Shown here piece after piece: positions 516-33,805 of a stretch of DNA of 64,000 nt. Location of the stretch: the IMG/VR virus record IMGVR_UViG_3300009079_000020, positions 1-64,000 of that record; one strand, given 5' to 3'. Every line of letters begins with the position of its first letter. The first letter of the stretch is position 1. This DNA is from a virus. A program made the translations under genes and the position numbers. A model generated the notes under the pieces. It worked only from the letters and a program-made list of their open reading frames with translations. It was not told the DNA's origin and searched no databases.

Positions 516-1001
516 ATGTCAAGAACTTTAAACATAACAAGCGGATTATTAACTATGTCAGTACTAACTGGGGCACTTGTCATAACTCTTTCTATGGGTG
601 GTCAACCCGATATAGATCCTAAAAGCCAAAATTGTTTGGCGATGAATATATATCACGAGGCTCGCGGCGAGGTCATTGAAGGCCAAATCGCTGTTGCCCA
701 TGTTACCATGAATAGAGTAGAGCATAAGGAATGGCCTAATAGCATATGTGATGTAGTCTACCAACCAAAGCAGTTTAGTTGGACGTTTATGATTAAAGAT
801 CAGACGCCCAAAGAAAACAAATCGTGGAAGCAAGCTCGGGCTATTGCCAGAGATGTGATGATAGGAAACGTAGATGATCCTACAAAGGGAGCTACATTTT
901 ATCACGCTACGTATGTGAATCCGGTGTGGGCAGATCAAATGGAAGTAAGTAAAATAATTGATAAACACGTGTTTTATGTGTGGGACGGCACTTGGGATTA
1001 G
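516..1001 (+). CDS. SleB/CwlJ-type cell-wall hydrolase, candidate endolysin
   Basis: The protein matches the SleB/CwlJ hydrolase family (Hydrolase_2): N-C-LAMNIYHEARGE, then VAHVTMNRV, QFSWT and GATFYHA blocks. The conserved Glu in YHEARGE is the expected catalytic residue. Family members cleave peptidoglycan. A hydrophobic N-terminal segment (about residues 9-28) could be a signal-anchor that exports the enzyme. With no other free endolysin in the window, this is the best lysis-enzyme candidate. The ATG at 555 (MSVLTGAL) is an alternative start and fits the late promoter better, because 516 lies almost on the expected transcription start. Confidence 0.85.
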   Translation: MSRTLNITSGLLTMSVLTGALVITLSMGGQPDIDPKSQNCLAMNIYHEARGEVIEGQIAVAHVTMNRVEHKEWPNSICDVVYQPKQFSWTFMIKDQTPKENKSWKQARAIARDVMIGNVDDPTKGATFYHATYVNPVWADQMEVSKIIDKHVFYVWDGTWD

Positions 1002-1807: not shown

Positions 1808-2200
1808 ATGAAAATCGCAGCAATCGCAGCAGCCGCTTTAGTAACGGCAACATCAGTCTCAGCCAATGAGATCGGTGGAACAGGCATCACTTGGGGTGTA
1901 ACATCAGAAGCAGCATACACAATTAACGATGCTGCAGGTAACGCAGTAGATGATTTCGGTGTAAAGGTAACTCCTGAAATCGGTTATTCAATGTTCGGTA
2001 TTGGCTTGTCAGCTGATATGGACTTGCCAGTTTATAACAATGAAGAGTTTCAATTGAGCAACGCGTTTGACGACCCAAAAGTCAATCTTGGTGCCACATA
2101 TGAAGTGTTTGGCGGCTTTGAGTTGTTCGGTGAAACAACTTGGGATTTTGACGCATCAGACAATGTAGCTACTAAAGTAGGTGCTACTTTCGCCTTCTGA
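1808..2200 (+). CDS. Secreted outer-membrane-like beta-barrel protein
   Basis: A clean signal peptide (MKIAAIAAAALVTATSVSA, cleavage before NE) is followed by about 110 residues of alternating polar and aromatic strands and a C-terminal phenylalanine (KVGATFAF). A terminal Phe on the last strand is the hallmark recognised by the BAM outer-membrane assembly machinery. The protein resembles a small porin or OmpW/OmpX-type barrel and is short for that class. AGGAAA lies upstream of the ATG. A strong terminator follows. It could alter the host surface, for example in receptor masking; this role is inferred. Confidence 0.6.
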   Translation: MKIAAIAAAALVTATSVSANEIGGTGITWGVTSEAAYTINDAAGNAVDDFGVKVTPEIGYSMFGIGLSADMDLPVYNNEEFQLSNAFDDPKVNLGATYEVFGGFELFGETTWDFDASDNVATKVGATFAF

Positions 2201-2208
2201 TATAAATA
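2201..2208 (+). promoter_or_regulatory. TATAAATA late-promoter match before a terminator
   Basis: Exact TATAAATA directly after the stop codon of the beta-barrel gene. A strong terminator follows only about 30 nt later, so a transcript from here would be about 50 nt long unless polymerase reads through to the gene at 2286. Confidence 0.45.
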
Positions 2209-2237
2209 CCATAGGGTCACTTACTTAATAAGTGCGC

Positions 2238-2267
2238 GGGGGGCCATGGTGAGCCCCCCTTTTTTTT
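2238..2267 (+). terminator. Strong Rho-independent terminator
   Basis: GGGGGGC (2238-2244) pairs perfectly with GCCCCCC (2253-2259) around an 8-nt loop, followed by a run of eight T (2260-2267). It ends the tmRNA/beta-barrel transcription unit. Confidence 0.9.
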
Positions 2268-2285
2268 ATGAGAAAGGACTATACT

Positions 2286-2642
2286 ATGAAAAAACTATTA
2301 TTGGCCTTAGGATTCATCACTGCTTGTGCTCCAGCGCACGCTGATATGTTACAAATAAATGTGCCATGCGATCCATCGCCCGAAGTAATGAGAATAATGA
2401 TACAGTATAAGAACTCTTTATTGCTTAGTGGAACAGGTACAATATCTGCTAAAAATGGAAAGACATTTACTTCCGAAGCTGGAATATTCTTAAACCAAGA
2501 CACTGGTACTTTAGCTGTTGTCTTATCTTTTCCCAATGGAGACAAGCCTCCAATGTCATGCTTAATTATTGCTGGAGCAGAGTGGGAGCCATATGCTGGA
2601 CCTCAGCCGTGGGATAAAATAAAAACAAAAGAAGATCTATAA
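2286..2642 (+). CDS. Secreted protein of unknown function (118 aa)
   Basis: The ATG at 2286 is chosen because AGAAAGGA lies 7 nt upstream; an in-frame ATG at 2268 falls in the terminator tail. The N-terminus is a signal peptide (MKKLLLALGFITACAPAHA). The mature part has two cysteines (VPCDPSPEVM and MSCLIIAG) that could form a disulfide, and looks like a small beta-rich domain. It is the first of a run of exported proteins. No family recognised. Confidence 0.65.
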   Translation: MKKLLLALGFITACAPAHADMLQINVPCDPSPEVMRIMIQYKNSLLLSGTGTISAKNGKTFTSEAGIFLNQDTGTLAVVLSFPNGDKPPMSCLIIAGAEWEPYAGPQPWDKIKTKEDL

Positions 2643-2646
2643 GGTA

Positions 2647-2654
2647 TATAAATA
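2647..2654 (+). promoter_or_regulatory. Late promoter for the exported-protein operon
   Basis: Exact TATAAATA 32 bp upstream of the ATG at 2687. The genes from 2687 to 6360 are tightly packed on the same strand with no other promoter visible, so this site probably drives all of them late in infection. Confidence 0.75.
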
Positions 2655-2686
2655 CTGTATGACTTACAATGATTGGTGGTATTTAA

Positions 2687-3277
2687 ATGTATAAAAAGTT
2701 GCATAGATTATTTTTGTTAATGGCATTAAGTTTGTTTACGCTATTGATAGTTGCTATTCAGGTTAAAGCCCAAGATGCAGCAGAATGTCCTGTCGGGTAT
2801 GTCTGCACATTATCAGGGACTGATTCCAATATAACAACTGATGGTCAAATGACCACAACCATAAAACAACCTCCTCCTTCTGCGATTGCGCCACAATTTA
2901 GTGCAGGTAATAATTCTGATCTGTGTACTATCGGAGCTTCTGCTTCAGTACAAACTCAGATTTTAGGCATATCTGCAGGAGGCACTTATACTGAAGAGAA
3001 TTGTAAAAGATTAAAAAATGCAAAAGTCTTATATGATATGGGAATGAAAGTGGCTGCGGTATCAACTATGTGTCAAGATGAAAACGTGTTTAAGGCAATG
3101 ATGAATGCTGGTACGCCATGCCCGTATAATGGTTTAATCGGTGATGCTGCTAAGTTGGGTTGGGAAACTCACGTTGAAGAAACTGAAAAAGAACTTAATT
3201 TGATGGGACCTATAGATGCTGAAAAAGCTGCTCCTGCCGTTAGCGCTGGTATTATCGCCCTCTTACTCTTACTCTGA
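2687..3277 (+). CDS. Secreted cysteine-containing protein with C-terminal hydrophobic tail
   Basis: A signal peptide (about residues 1-28, ending VKAQ) precedes a cysteine-containing mature region (ECPVGYVC, DLCTIG, ENCKRL, TMCQDE, TPCPYNG). The last residues form a hydrophobic stretch (AGIIALLLLL) that could anchor the C-terminus in a membrane. The final 62 nt overlap the signal-peptide region of the next gene in another frame, and that overlap may itself create the hydrophobic tail. No family recognised. Periplasmic or outer-membrane location is inferred. Confidence 0.65.
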   Translation: MYKKLHRLFLLMALSLFTLLIVAIQVKAQDAAECPVGYVCTLSGTDSNITTDGQMTTTIKQPPPSAIAPQFSAGNNSDLCTIGASASVQTQILGISAGGTYTEENCKRLKNAKVLYDMGMKVAAVSTMCQDENVFKAMMNAGTPCPYNGLIGDAAKLGWETHVEETEKELNLMGPIDAEKAAPAVSAGIIALLLLL

Positions 3278-4124
3278 AAGTATTGCTCCGTACTTTGGGT
3301 ATACTGGAAATGCTATAACGGACCAATCTCTCGCTTGGTCTATGCCAAACATATTGCCTGATCCATCTGGATTAGATATACAGAATGTAATATACAGTTA
3401 TAAGATACAGAAAGAAACTGGTGAATGGGTAACAGTACATGTGCAGAATGAAAATGCTAATGCCACTGGTTATATTTTTAGAGAGACTGACGAGTGGAAA
3501 CCAGGATCAGTAGCCGGTACTGGAATTAGTAAAGCAGTTCCAGTAGGCAATTTACCCAGAGCATTATGGGGAGAGGGAAGCATAGATGTAGATGGCAACG
3601 GATCAGTATACGATGCAAGTATAGTATATACGTATAGAGTCGATCCTTGTTTTAATCCGCAGTTTAATACTAACTGCCCAGGATATGTAGAGCCAATCCC
3701 TGACATACCAGAAGTTGGCTTAGAAGATGTTTATGATGTATTCGATGACGATAATGTTAACATGGAACGAAATAAAACAATCGAACAAGATAAGATAAAT
3801 AAGGCTAAAGCAAAAGAAGAAGATGAAGAAGAAGAGGAAGAGCGTAAAAGAAGGTACAGACTTGAAAAGGTTTTGTCAGATCTGCAAGCTTCTCAACTTC
3901 TAGCTGAGAATTCTATAATAGAACAAATGAATAACAATATGCAAAACGAGATAAATAAGACATATCTAGTAATGAAAATACCAGGCGGAGAATATAAAGA
4001 TAGCGTGGTACTGGCAGATTCAAAGTTGCCAGACTCAAAGAATGGATTACGTAATGGACTAGCCCAACAGTTATTGCACAACCAGATGGTTGAGATGCAA
4101 TATCAAATAAACGAAGAGAACTAA
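3216..4124 (+). CDS. Secreted protein with acidic/basic coiled-coil C-terminal half
   Basis: The signal peptide (MLKKLLLPLALVLSPSYSYS) is followed by a beta-rich domain of about 140 residues with a cysteine pair (DPCFNPQFNTNCPGY). A linker then leads to a highly charged segment (KEEDEEEEEERKRRYRLE) and a long predicted coiled coil. The globular part plus helical stalk resembles a secreted fibre or adhesion component, but no family is recognised. The start overlaps the preceding gene by 62 nt, which is unusually long even for phages. Confidence 0.65.
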   Translation: MLKKLLLPLALVLSPSYSYSESIAPYFGYTGNAITDQSLAWSMPNILPDPSGLDIQNVIYSYKIQKETGEWVTVHVQNENANATGYIFRETDEWKPGSVAGTGISKAVPVGNLPRALWGEGSIDVDGNGSVYDASIVYTYRVDPCFNPQFNTNCPGYVEPIPDIPEVGLEDVYDVFDDDNVNMERNKTIEQDKINKAKAKEEDEEEEEERKRRYRLEKVLSDLQASQLLAENSIIEQMNNNMQNEINKTYLVMKIPGGEYKDSVVLADSKLPDSKNGLRNGLAQQLLHNQMVEMQYQINEEN

Positions 4125-4135
4125 GGAAACATAAT

Positions 4136-4660
4136 ATGAATATGTTTAAAATTAAGACTAGTCTGTTTGCACTATCTACTATGGTTGTGGCAAGTCAGGC
4201 TTTAGCACAACAAGAAGGATCAGTTCCTATTAACGGCACTGTTCAATCGCGTTGTGTAATTCAAGCAGATACCGCAGGAACATACGGCAACCCTAATGCG
4301 TATGAATTAAATACAGCCGCAACAGCTGGTGGGAACAACGCTGTAATTCGCGTTGATGTAACACTGGCCGATTCATATTATGTTAATATTACTGCACCAT
4401 CGTCATTTTCAAACAGCCCAACTTTACCTGACACTGTAACTTGGACTGGAGATACAACTGTTAAAACGCTATCAGATGCGACAGGAATGAGTGGGTACGA
4501 AACTGGTAAGCAGGAACTAGGAATGGTAGATAAGTATGACCTAACTGTTGTTGGTTCTACATGGTTTGAAACAGAGTCAAAAGCTACTCTTGGAGGTTCA
4601 AGAGCATTTCCCGGCGGAAACTACACTGCATTAGTAGAAGCTGAGTGTATTGCAAAGTAG
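4136..4660 (+). CDS. Secreted pilin-like beta-sandwich protein
   Basis: The signal peptide ends at residue 24 (SQALA/QQEG). The mature sequence begins with VPINGTVQSRCVIQAD and ends GGNYTALVEAECIAK, with alternating hydrophobic strands between. A cysteine near each end and the terminal G-x-Y-T-A-x-V-x-A strand resemble chaperone-usher pilins and spore-coat-U-like proteins. The next gene looks like a small pilus chaperone. No usher is present in the window, so export across the outer membrane would need a host partner. Similarity is by pattern only. Confidence 0.5.
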   Translation: MNMFKIKTSLFALSTMVVASQALAQQEGSVPINGTVQSRCVIQADTAGTYGNPNAYELNTAATAGGNNAVIRVDVTLADSYYVNITAPSSFSNSPTLPDTVTWTGDTTVKTLSDATGMSGYETGKQELGMVDKYDLTVVGSTWFETESKATLGGSRAFPGGNYTALVEAECIAK

Positions 4661-4663
4661 GAA

Positions 4664-5071
4664 ATGACTATGCTACGTTATGGTTTATTCTCAGTCTTTA
4701 TAGCTATTTTTTTAACATGCGCTTTAAGTGTTAAGGCCCATGAGATGGTTCCAACATACCCAAAATTGGAACCATCTCATATACAAGGGCTATATAAAAC
4801 AAAGGTAACAATATTCAATAAAAGACCAGAAGTTGAGTATTATGAAATTGGGGTATTTACAGAAGATTGGGAATCAATACCGTTTGTTTCTACATACAAA
4901 ATCTTTCCAGTCCCCTTTTTAAGCACAGTAACAAACGAGCTGTTTATACGTAATATTGATAGAAAAAAAGTAAGGTATATATGCTCTAAATCGAAACTGC
5001 GTAGGTCATATGAAACGCGAACTATAGTGTCTTCTAGGATTTGCTCAAAGATAAAAAGGCTAGGTGAATGA
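4664..5071 (+). CDS. Secreted Ig-like protein, possible pilus-type chaperone
   Basis: A signal peptide (to about residue 26, VKAHE) precedes one Ig-like stretch of strands: TKVTIFNKRPEVEYYEIGVF, then FVSTYKIFPVPF and NELFIRNID. This layout resembles the N-terminal domain of PapD-like periplasmic chaperones, where I-x-N and a basic patch hold the subunit C-terminus. The protein is half the usual length and lacks a second domain. Being next to the pilin-like gene supports, but does not prove, a chaperone role. Confidence 0.4.
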   Translation: MTMLRYGLFSVFIAIFLTCALSVKAHEMVPTYPKLEPSHIQGLYKTKVTIFNKRPEVEYYEIGVFTEDWESIPFVSTYKIFPVPFLSTVTNELFIRNIDRKKVRYICSKSKLRRSYETRTIVSSRICSKIKRLGE

Positions 5072-5493
5072 AAAAGTGTATTATATTATTAACCTTATCA
5101 ATGTTTCCTATTACAGCATTAGCAGATAACAGTGGGATTGGACTAACACTACCTGGAGCTTCTGTCTCATATGGTAGTGATAGCATCAAAGCTGGAGACT
5201 TAAACTGCTCAAATTCTATTGGCGGCGCCACAAATTTTGAGTTTGGTATAACAGGCGTTATCGATAACTATAGTAGTCCATTCAACTCTCCAGATTACGG
5301 TAACACTGAAAAGGATGTTGGAGTATATGCTAGAATAGTTATACCACTCGATAAGCCTAAAGAAAGAATTAATTGTAACAGCTTGTATCAATTAGAGCTG
5401 AGAAAAAAAAGATTAGAAGTGCTAAAGCTGCAACAAGAACTGGAAGCGTTAAGACGTTTAAACAATTCTGAAGCAAGCACATTTGAGAACTAG
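5068..5493 (+). CDS. Secreted protein with C-terminal coiled coil
   Basis: The ATGA overlap at 5068 couples it to the upstream gene. A signal peptide (MKKCIILLTLSMFPITALA) is followed by a glycine/serine-rich beta domain (LTLPGASVSYGSD, DLNCSNSIGG, FEFGITGVID). The last 40 residues form a charged helix (LELRKKRLEVLKLQQELEAL). Globular head plus helix suggests an oligomeric periplasmic or surface component. No family recognised. Confidence 0.6.
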   Translation: MKKCIILLTLSMFPITALADNSGIGLTLPGASVSYGSDSIKAGDLNCSNSIGGATNFEFGITGVIDNYSSPFNSPDYGNTEKDVGVYARIVIPLDKPKERINCNSLYQLELRKKRLEVLKLQQELEALRRLNNSEASTFEN

Positions 5494-5503
5494 GAGTTAA
5501 TAA

Positions 5504-6082
5504 ATGTCAGAGCTAGAATTTGGAGGAGTTAAGTTTAAAGGCGGCAAGATGTTTGCTGTTCTTACGGCGCTATCAACGTTAGGTGGCGCAGCTTGGGGAG
5601 GCTTTGAGTTCTACAATGATTATAGAAATATGAAAGAGATTGTAGAAAATATTGATGTAGATTCTATTGCAGCCGAAAACGAAAAAGTTATTCTTAGAAT
5701 GGAAGAAAATATGGTTCGTATTAACGAGGCCATTGAATATACTCGTGATATTAAAACTGGTCTTAGAGATGATATACTTGGTATTGAAAAGCAAGTGGAT
5801 CGCACAGAAGATGAGTTGCGGGAAAGCGAGCAAACGACAAGAGAGATTGTACAGAATGCAGAAGAGCGCTTTGAAAACAAGCGAGACGCATTATCTAATG
5901 ATTATGACACAAAGGCGAATAGTTTAAGAAACTCAAATAACAGTCGTATGAACGATCTAGAAACTAAAGTAGAACGCGACTTAGAATCACTGCGAGCGAT
6001 GATCGAGAGAGACATGAGAGAGCTTGATACTCTATTAAATGATAAATTACAAAGAGCCCTAAATAATCCACTAGCAAACTAA
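5504..6082 (+). CDS. Membrane-anchored long coiled-coil protein
   Basis: A hydrophobic segment at about residues 16-34 (MFAVLTALSTLGGAAWGGFEF) is followed by about 150 residues of almost uninterrupted coiled coil rich in E, R, N and D. The arrangement resembles membrane-tethered stalks or spanin-like proteins, but a separate spanin pair exists at 18.8-19.5 kb. It probably works with the exported proteins upstream or in envelope disruption. This is inference from topology. Confidence 0.6.
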   Translation: MSELEFGGVKFKGGKMFAVLTALSTLGGAAWGGFEFYNDYRNMKEIVENIDVDSIAAENEKVILRMEENMVRINEAIEYTRDIKTGLRDDILGIEKQVDRTEDELRESEQTTREIVQNAEERFENKRDALSNDYDTKANSLRNSNNSRMNDLETKVERDLESLRAMIERDMRELDTLLNDKLQRALNNPLAN

Positions 6083-6093
6083 CGGAGATCTAA

Positions 6094-6360
6094 ATGGCCG
6101 AAGAAGAAAAAGTTAAAGCTAAACTAGTAGCTAAAGCGCCGCATGCAATTAGAGATGAAGATACACCAGAAGGTAAAATGGAACTTCAATTCCGAGTTTT
6201 AGGTAATGAAATGATCGGCATTAAGATGATAGTCGATGACATGAAAATGAAATGGGTTTTTATTGGATTACTTGCTATTTTAGTAATGACATGGGCCGCT
6301 GCAGAATTCGGCAATGCTATTACTGGAACAAGTCCTGGAGAAGAATGGTCGGAAGGCTAG
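6094..6360 (+). CDS. Small single-span membrane protein
   Basis: GGAGA precedes the ATG by about 7 nt. A charged N-terminal half is followed by one transmembrane helix (WVFIGLLAILVMTWAAAEFG, about residues 51-70) and a short tail. It is the last gene of the exported-protein operon and ends convergently with the minus-strand gene next to it (4-bp overlap of stops). A holin-like or anchoring role is possible. No family recognised. Confidence 0.55.
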   Translation: MAEEEKVKAKLVAKAPHAIRDEDTPEGKMELQFRVLGNEMIGIKMIVDDMKMKWVFIGLLAILVMTWAAAEFGNAITGTSPGEEWSEG

Positions 6361-33156: not shown

Positions 33157-33368
33157 AAATAACTGATTATTCAAGTATGGCCATGAATATTATATCGAAT
33201 GGTTGGCATTTGCCTTTAGTTAATGGCAAAGTTAACAGTAGTAATATTGAAGATAAAATTGTAATAGGCATATATAATAAAGATCTTGGCCCGATACTTG
33301 CTGAAGAGGCTGATTTAGTAATTCAGCTAGTGGAAGAATTAGTAGCCGAGTATGGAGAAAAAACATGA
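33153..33368 (+). CDS. Small hypothetical protein (71 aa)
   Basis: The ATG at 33153 overlaps the previous TGA (ATGA) and has GGAG about 9 nt upstream, so it is preferred to the ATG at 33147. The product (KITDYSSMAMNIISNGWHLP) is a small alpha/beta protein ending in an acidic helix. No family recognised. Its end overlaps the next gene. Confidence 0.5.
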   Translation: MKITDYSSMAMNIISNGWHLPLVNGKVNSSNIEDKIVIGIYNKDLGPILAEEADLVIQLVEELVAEYGEKT

Positions 33369-33805
33369 AACTAATATTAGCCAGTGCGGCACTGTTTGCC
33401 GCCACTTCTGTTTCTGCAGAAGTAACTAAGATCAAAATTTATGATCACACTAAAACCGTGACACAATCCGTGCCGGTATCCGAACGGAGATGTCAAGACA
33501 TTAAGGTTCCTATCTACCAACAAGGTGGCCAAGCATCTGGTGGTGACGTACTACTTGGTGCTATCCTCGGCGGTTTACTTGGCGGAGGAGTATCTGGTAA
33601 AGACGAAGGTGCTGCTATTGGTGCTTTAGGTGGCGCAATCATTGCGAATGAATCTGCTAAAGGTCCTAAGGTAACTGGATATGAAATTCAGCGGCAATGC
33701 AGTGATGTAGTTGTATATCAGAATTCTAATGTAGAAATATATAGTCATTCTACCATCCGCTTCTTCGTAGACGGAAAACGGTATGTAGTACCGTTTCAGA
33801 AATAA
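33365..33805 (+). CDS. Secreted glycine-zipper (17-kDa-antigen-like) protein
   Basis: The signal peptide (MKLILASAALFAATSVSA) is followed by two short beta regions around a glycine-zipper membrane segment (DVLLGAILGGLLGGGVSG, then AAIGALGGAIIA, about residues 60-97). This matches Gly-zipper/17-kDa surface-antigen family proteins of alphaproteobacteria, found in some marine phages. Two cysteines (ERRCQD and RQCSDV) flank the zipper. Envelope location is likely; the role in infection is unknown. ATGA overlap couples it to the upstream gene. Confidence 0.7.
   Translation: MKLILASAALFAATSVSAEVTKIKIYDHTKTVTQSVPVSERRCQDIKVPIYQQGGQASGGDVLLGAILGGLLGGGVSGKDEGAAIGALGGAIIANESAKGPKVTGYEIQRQCSDVVVYQNSNVEIYSHSTIRFFVDGKRYVVPFQK

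Follow-up and report, generated by a model that had tools for sequence, protein, structure and literature searches.

Pelagiphages carry curli secretion genes that have been proposed to act in aggregation or exclusion (PMC7029224, PMC9599517). In chaperone-usher pili of the FGL class, the chaperones conserve a disulfide between strands F1 and G1 (PMC3706281), and the releasin gp25 of phage Mu has its N-terminus out and its C-terminus in (PMC9239132). Here we compare these systems with a cassette of six genes, designated C to H, at positions 2687-6082 (+ strand) of a 64 kb window, which comprises positions 1 to 64,000 of the 70.7 kb IMG/VR virus record IMGVR_UViG_3300009079_000020. A type II ribonucleotide reductase, large tail-like genes and T4-type late-promoter octamers in the window suggest that the source, a marine phage, is a T4-like myophage. 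The sole DNA match to phage Melnitz was a TIGR03299-like protein outside the cassette, and it was set aside. That phages infecting abundant marine bacteria carry a fixed, exported set of six genes implies an envelope function under selection, one overlooked by current annotation.

The extent of the cassette was determined from 192 loci, collected in three IMG/VR scans with E, F and C as queries and then analysed with per-protein profiles. Duplicates were removed by sequence, so related contigs in this locus set are not fully independent. C, D, E, F, G and H travelled together, with 163-184 open reading frames (ORFs) each, while three neighbours on the same strand were rare and restricted to close relatives: A (1808-2200), an exported beta protein resembling outer-membrane proteins, with 16 ORFs; B (2286-2642), a small exported protein matching phrog_25396 (E 5e-4), with 14; and I (6094-6360), a small membrane protein, with 10. 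We therefore place the conserved cassette at 2687-6082 and regard A, B and I as lineage-specific neighbours. B most likely begins at 2286 rather than 2268. All six genes C-H were present in 113 distinct IMG/VR sequence sets and were ordered on a single strand in 113/113, so that the neighbourhood in related genomes is conserved, and every C-D locus without E and F terminates no more than 262 nucleotides (nt) past D. The C (2687-3277) and D (3216-4124) genes overlap by 62 nt in the window and by at least 62 nt in 167 of 167 pairs. The genes for E (4136-4660), F (4664-5071) and G (5068-5493) abut or overlap one another across the locus set, and H follows at 5504-6082. A small exported beta protein that resembles outer-membrane proteins, of the same type as A, also recurs close to the cassette at further loci (L020:6145-6492).

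Signal peptides, recognised by a simple rule (basic n-region, hydrophobic core and small residues at -3/-1), were found in all of A-G (1808-5493) but in only 2 of the 48 other window genes tested. Among relatives, a signal peptide was present at the called start in 22/23 C, 56/64 D, 37/38 E, 64/65 F and 45/45 G proteins. H and I are membrane proteins. Lipobox-like sequence was only sporadic across C-H, and no lipoprotein partner was found in the cassette. The late-promoter-like octamer TATAAATA lies at 2647-2654 (+), 40 nt upstream of C. This copy is among the 8 of 15 in the window that sit 20-50 nt upstream of gene starts, a zone amounting to 2% of the sequence (binomial P ~1e-10), which is the placement of T4-type late promoters; the octamer count alone was not above chance (15 seen, 10.4 ± 3.2 expected). 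The first-pass annotation had proposed a late operon at 1808-6360 encoding seven exported and two membrane proteins. Its ORFs were found where it had placed them, and the export signals, the membrane proteins and the late control at 2647 were borne out. A, B and I lie outside the conserved unit. Elsewhere in the window, another small exported protein with a signal peptide is encoded at 33365-33805, directly upstream of three transfer RNA genes.

E was modelled by AlphaFold 2 (AF2) as a beta-sandwich, with a predicted local distance difference test score (pLDDT) of 87 overall and about 97 in the core. Its first residues, which carry a conserved I-x-G-x-V-x3-C motif, stay outside the sheets up to the Cys, and the alignment showed a conserved Cys pair. 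The best solved matches in Foldseek were CS17 and CfaB of CFA/I (probability 0.99-1.00). Fim tip and rod subunits (FimA/F), the pilin domain of PapG, CsuA/B and Caf1 were also among the top matches, and staphylococcal MSCRAMM adhesins and AP2 mu were mixed into the same list. The N-terminal motif, which is similar to E. coli pilin N-termini, was found in 26 of 38 E proteins; shuffling predicted 1.2, and the count was 0-1 in the families of C, D, F and G. Searching BFVD with E returned no named match that was informative. Taken with the moderate structural scores, the prediction supports a chaperone-usher pilin fold for E.

F is 135 amino acids (aa) long, with homologues of up to about 150 aa, and consists of a single immunoglobulin (Ig) domain of about 110 aa. 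In a model of the E-F-G homologues of locus L057, predicted as one fused chain, the F domain matched the VAP-A MSP and CEP192 PapD-like domains, both members of the PapD-like superfamily. The fused chain as a whole (predicted template modelling score 0.58) returned mainly antibody Fabs because two Ig-like domains shared one chain, and the single-domain matches alone were used. An F profile built from phage and bacterial sequences aligned in HHalign with nine E. coli fimbrial chaperones over 107 columns of the chaperone N-domain (E 1.5e-5). With signal peptides removed the value was 3.9e-4, compared with 0.04 for the best of 40 column shuffles, and the F profile did not align to pilins. Two Cys are invariant in the alignments and, judged by their position, could link strands F1 and G1 in the manner of the FGL chaperones. 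These predictions support F as a PapD-like chaperone that has the N-domain only. G, in the same AF2 model, has a pair of 12-residue strands predicted to form a hairpin, followed by a 28-residue C-terminal helix; a Cys pair is conserved in its alignments, and we consider G a candidate outer-membrane anchor or pore.

The remaining members were characterised mainly from alignments. C has a four-Cys domain and a hydrophobic C-terminal tail (phrog_20531, E 3e-15), and D has a beta domain, an acidic linker, a coiled coil and a conserved C-terminus. H has a basic N-terminus and a membrane anchor followed by a long coiled coil, with an invariant NPL near the C-terminus. Because its N-terminus is basic, H is predicted to be N-in and would fit the i-spanin topology (N-in anchor, periplasmic coiled coil), as read from charge alone. 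No named Pfam or NCBIfam family matched C-G, for which the matches were to PHROGs of unknown function, and H matched no Pfam family besides generic coiled-coil ones; ATP-synt_B, apolipoprotein and ZorA were set aside as such. DUF2730 was also rejected for H, since PF10805 was unmatched both in H members and in pelagiphage H homologues. Profiles of C, D, E, F and G gave no convincing match among PDB chains, and the Pfam, NCBIfam and PADLOC searches yielded no useful result. The H homologues of roseophages CRP-810 (L198:7219-7641) and CRP-207 (L228:3292-3873) were deposited as lysozymes, yet they are membrane-anchored coiled coils ending in NPL. A protein with an EF-hand and two membrane helices recurs immediately downstream of H (L193:6067-6387, L228:3870-4226) and is a possible holin.

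The first-pass annotation had also described a pilin-like protein followed by a chaperone-like one, which is backed by the predicted structures and the profile comparison, and secreted coiled-coil proteins, which are likewise supported. Neither of the outcomes that would have counted against it, a lack of signal peptides in homologues or known virion or cytoplasmic folds, emerged. Its links to curli and to an actual pilus were not supported (CsgG was found in 0/14 phage records, and an usher was not found), and the functions that it proposed are hypothetical. Overall, the earlier interpretation is partly supported, and a role at lysis is added here as a serious option because of the lysis-region neighbourhoods and the units that stand alone.

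The cassette looks like two older units joined together, E-F-G and C-D-H. E-F-G occurs without C-D-H in the T5-like Vibrio phages pVp-1 and Morian and in Vibrio phage 1.205.O, whose deposited annotation omits the F gene (L231:4588-5001, between NVP1205O_45 and _46). A gene for a small acidic lipoprotein runs into the end of G in Vibrio phages that carry E-F-G (L231:5242-5427; L199:6344-6502). Among bacteria, Nitratireductor soli has three tandem E-F-G triads amid ordinary chromosomal genes (NZ_LFVY01000006.1; L212:5292-10381), and no PF00577 usher was found in its genome. Mesorhizobium plasmid pB2-1-8 has one triad with an extra E, and E-F-G is also present in genome G229 (L217) and in a metagenome-assembled genome of the Hyphomicrobiales, which has an usher elsewhere. 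In Photobacterium chitinilyticum, F-like and G genes lie behind a pilin-like gene and a gene for a 313-aa protein. The triad is rare in bacteria, with 2 occurrences in 385 alphaproteobacterial genomes sampled. Conversely, C, a coiled-coil protein in the D position and a short homologue of H occur without E-F-G in pelagiphages HTVC023P, HTVC033P, HTVC115P, HTVC202P and Mosig, in the uncultured phage S28C10 and in roseophages CRP-207 and CRP-810. Homology at the D position rests on place, architecture and a weak profile match in HTVC115P, strong sequence similarity being absent.

In the window, a gene at 516-1001 (+), 1.7 kb upstream of C, encodes a cell-wall hydrolase of the Hydrolase_2 family (PF07486, E 8e-29; phrog_938 endolysin, E 5e-30) with a hydrophobic N-terminal segment of signal-arrest-release type; its product is probably an endolysin. 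Loci with C-D-H alone mostly lie in lysis or packaging regions, next to endolysin, holin-like or terminase genes. In HTVC033P, genes for an amidase (phrog_822, E 9e-55) and for a membrane protein of phrog_2524 lie a few genes upstream of C-D-H. An M15 endolysin gene (phrog_894) abuts H in HTVC023P, and in S28C10 C is immediately preceded by a small membrane protein gene, with the gene for the terminase large subunit following. For E-F-G, a phrog_860 holin and a phrog_894 M15 endolysin lie downstream in pVp-1. Of 34 distinct, well-flanked loci with the full cassette, 20 have an endolysin or terminase family in the vicinity; the cassette is flanked by tail-fibre relatives upstream and by small membrane proteins downstream. 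The cassette thus sits in late, lysis-adjacent territory, a placement that does not prove a function in lysis.

Fourteen phage records were searched for the usher (PF00577), CsgG (PF03783) and Rz (PF03245) families, and no match to any of them lay above the cut-off, the CsgG controls being positive. Several of these records are fragments, so that a missing usher or spanin there is no proof of absence. The context of C-D-H, the predicted topology of H and the Rz result lead us to favour, tentatively, a reading in which C-H form a late envelope-bridging assembly that helps to breach the outer membrane, or to clear it away, when the cell lyses at the end of infection. F would cap E in the periplasm, and the free N-terminal strand of E would complete a neighbouring subunit by donor-strand exchange. 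The beta-hairpin of G, together with its coiled coil, may oligomerise as an outer-membrane anchor or pore in place of an usher, and C, D and H would tie the assembly to the wall and the inner membrane. If the cassette acts at lysis, it would help explain how marine phages without a recognisable Rz-type spanin open the outer membrane. Several points weigh against this reading. The Foldseek E-values of E were only ~1e-3 to 1e-2, with TM-scores of 0.3-0.5, and an HHalign match of E to E. coli pilins (93%) was discarded because it had aligned signal peptides, being no better than shuffles without them. The hairpin of G was modelled at low confidence (pLDDT ~60). No lysis gene was seen beside C-D-H in Mosig or HTVC115P, and since late genes often cluster, nearness to lysis genes is weak functional evidence. 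The bacterial chromosomal triads have no adjoining lysis genes, so E-F-G is no lysis device by nature, and in 1.205.O E-F-G coexists with genes for small, o-spanin-type lipoproteins, so that E-F-G does not have to stand in for a spanin.

The closest competing reading is a surface fibre, to which we give somewhat less weight than to a role at lysis. Here F and G would build E into a thin fibre or coat on the surface of the infected cell, D would bind carbohydrate, and the fibre would aggregate cells ('sibling capture') or block superinfection. The pilin-like E and chaperone-like F favour it, as do the bacterial chromosomal E-F-G arrays with extra copies of E, the D-position protein of pelagiphages, named by depositors as carbohydrate-binding, and the aggregation or exclusion proposed for pelagiphage curli secretion genes (PMC7029224, PMC9599517). 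However, neither an usher nor CsgG was found, C-D-H occupies lysis neighbourhoods without E-F-G, and lysis would soon cut short the action of a fibre made late. Export alone might instead serve exclusion, with the periplasmic proteins masking or altering receptors and no fibre being built. Phage exclusion proteins are often envelope proteins, and a string of small exported products would suit such a role, which is nevertheless unlikely: the expression signal is late rather than early, six fixed genes including a chaperone are elaborate for mere masking, and matches to known systems were limited to the weak coiled-coil ones of H.

Two further alternatives carry little weight. In several phages the cassette has tail-fibre genes on one side and packaging genes on the other, and its products might decorate the tail or capsid, their signal peptides being incidental; this is very improbable given that a signal peptide is found at the called start in 87-100% of the members of every family C-G, that Cys pairs are conserved, and that chaperone and pilin folds belong to periplasmic systems. 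A divergent curli (type VIII) module, as in HTVC008M and Melnitz, would share habitat, host range and an exported protein set with the cassette (PMC9004378, PMC9599517), but it is largely refuted by the CsgG result and by the predicted folds of E and F, which are pilin- and PapD-like rather than curli-like. 

A more novel reading, conceivable if rather doubtful, is that E-F-G is a previously undescribed minimal system for export and assembly. In it, a one-domain chaperone would pass pilin subunits to G, a small outer-membrane protein that forms oligomers and replaces the usher; the system would be sporadic in bacteria, and marine phages would have captured it and coupled it to envelope proteins of their own lysis region. 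Assembly of E by F and G in this usherless way, if it takes place, would represent a new minimal route to pilin-type structures. The question can be tested outside SAR11, since E-F-G is carried by the cultured Vibrio phages pVp-1, Morian and 1.205.O and by N. soli.

Among known systems, chaperone-usher pili (CFA/I and the CS class; the FGL class Caf1/Caf1M) share with the cassette a pilin-like subunit with a free N-terminal strand and a Cys pair, and a PapD-like chaperone with a conserved Cys pair encoded by an adjacent gene. They differ in having an usher and a two-domain chaperone, where F has one Ig domain, whereas the cassette has the third partner G, no family match at the sequence level and a phage location. 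With a one-domain chaperone and no usher found, the cassette would work like a chaperone-pilin system and is not filed as chaperone-usher; a chaperone-pilin set that is phage-borne and lacks an usher was not described in the literature searched. Rz/Rz1 spanins resemble the cassette in the predicted N-in anchor and periplasmic coiled coil of H, in overlapping genes and, in several phages, in endolysin or holin-like neighbours; they differ in that the cassette has no lipoprotein partner and no Rz family match above the cut-off, and has five further exported proteins. Separate small lipoproteins are encoded outside the cassette genes in Vibrio phages. The Mu releasin gp25 (DUF2730) is likewise a small membrane protein with a coiled coil encoded near an endolysin, and the S28C10 homologue of H was labelled DUF2730 by its depositors, but H lacks a PF10805 match and has the opposite predicted topology. 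Finally, the curli (type VIII) genes of pelagiphages and Melnitz encode proteins unrelated to those of the cassette, but in both cases marine phages encode an exported envelope or surface system that is absent from the host, and these published phage genes are the closest conceptual precedent for the cassette (PMC7029224, PMC9599517, PMC9004378).

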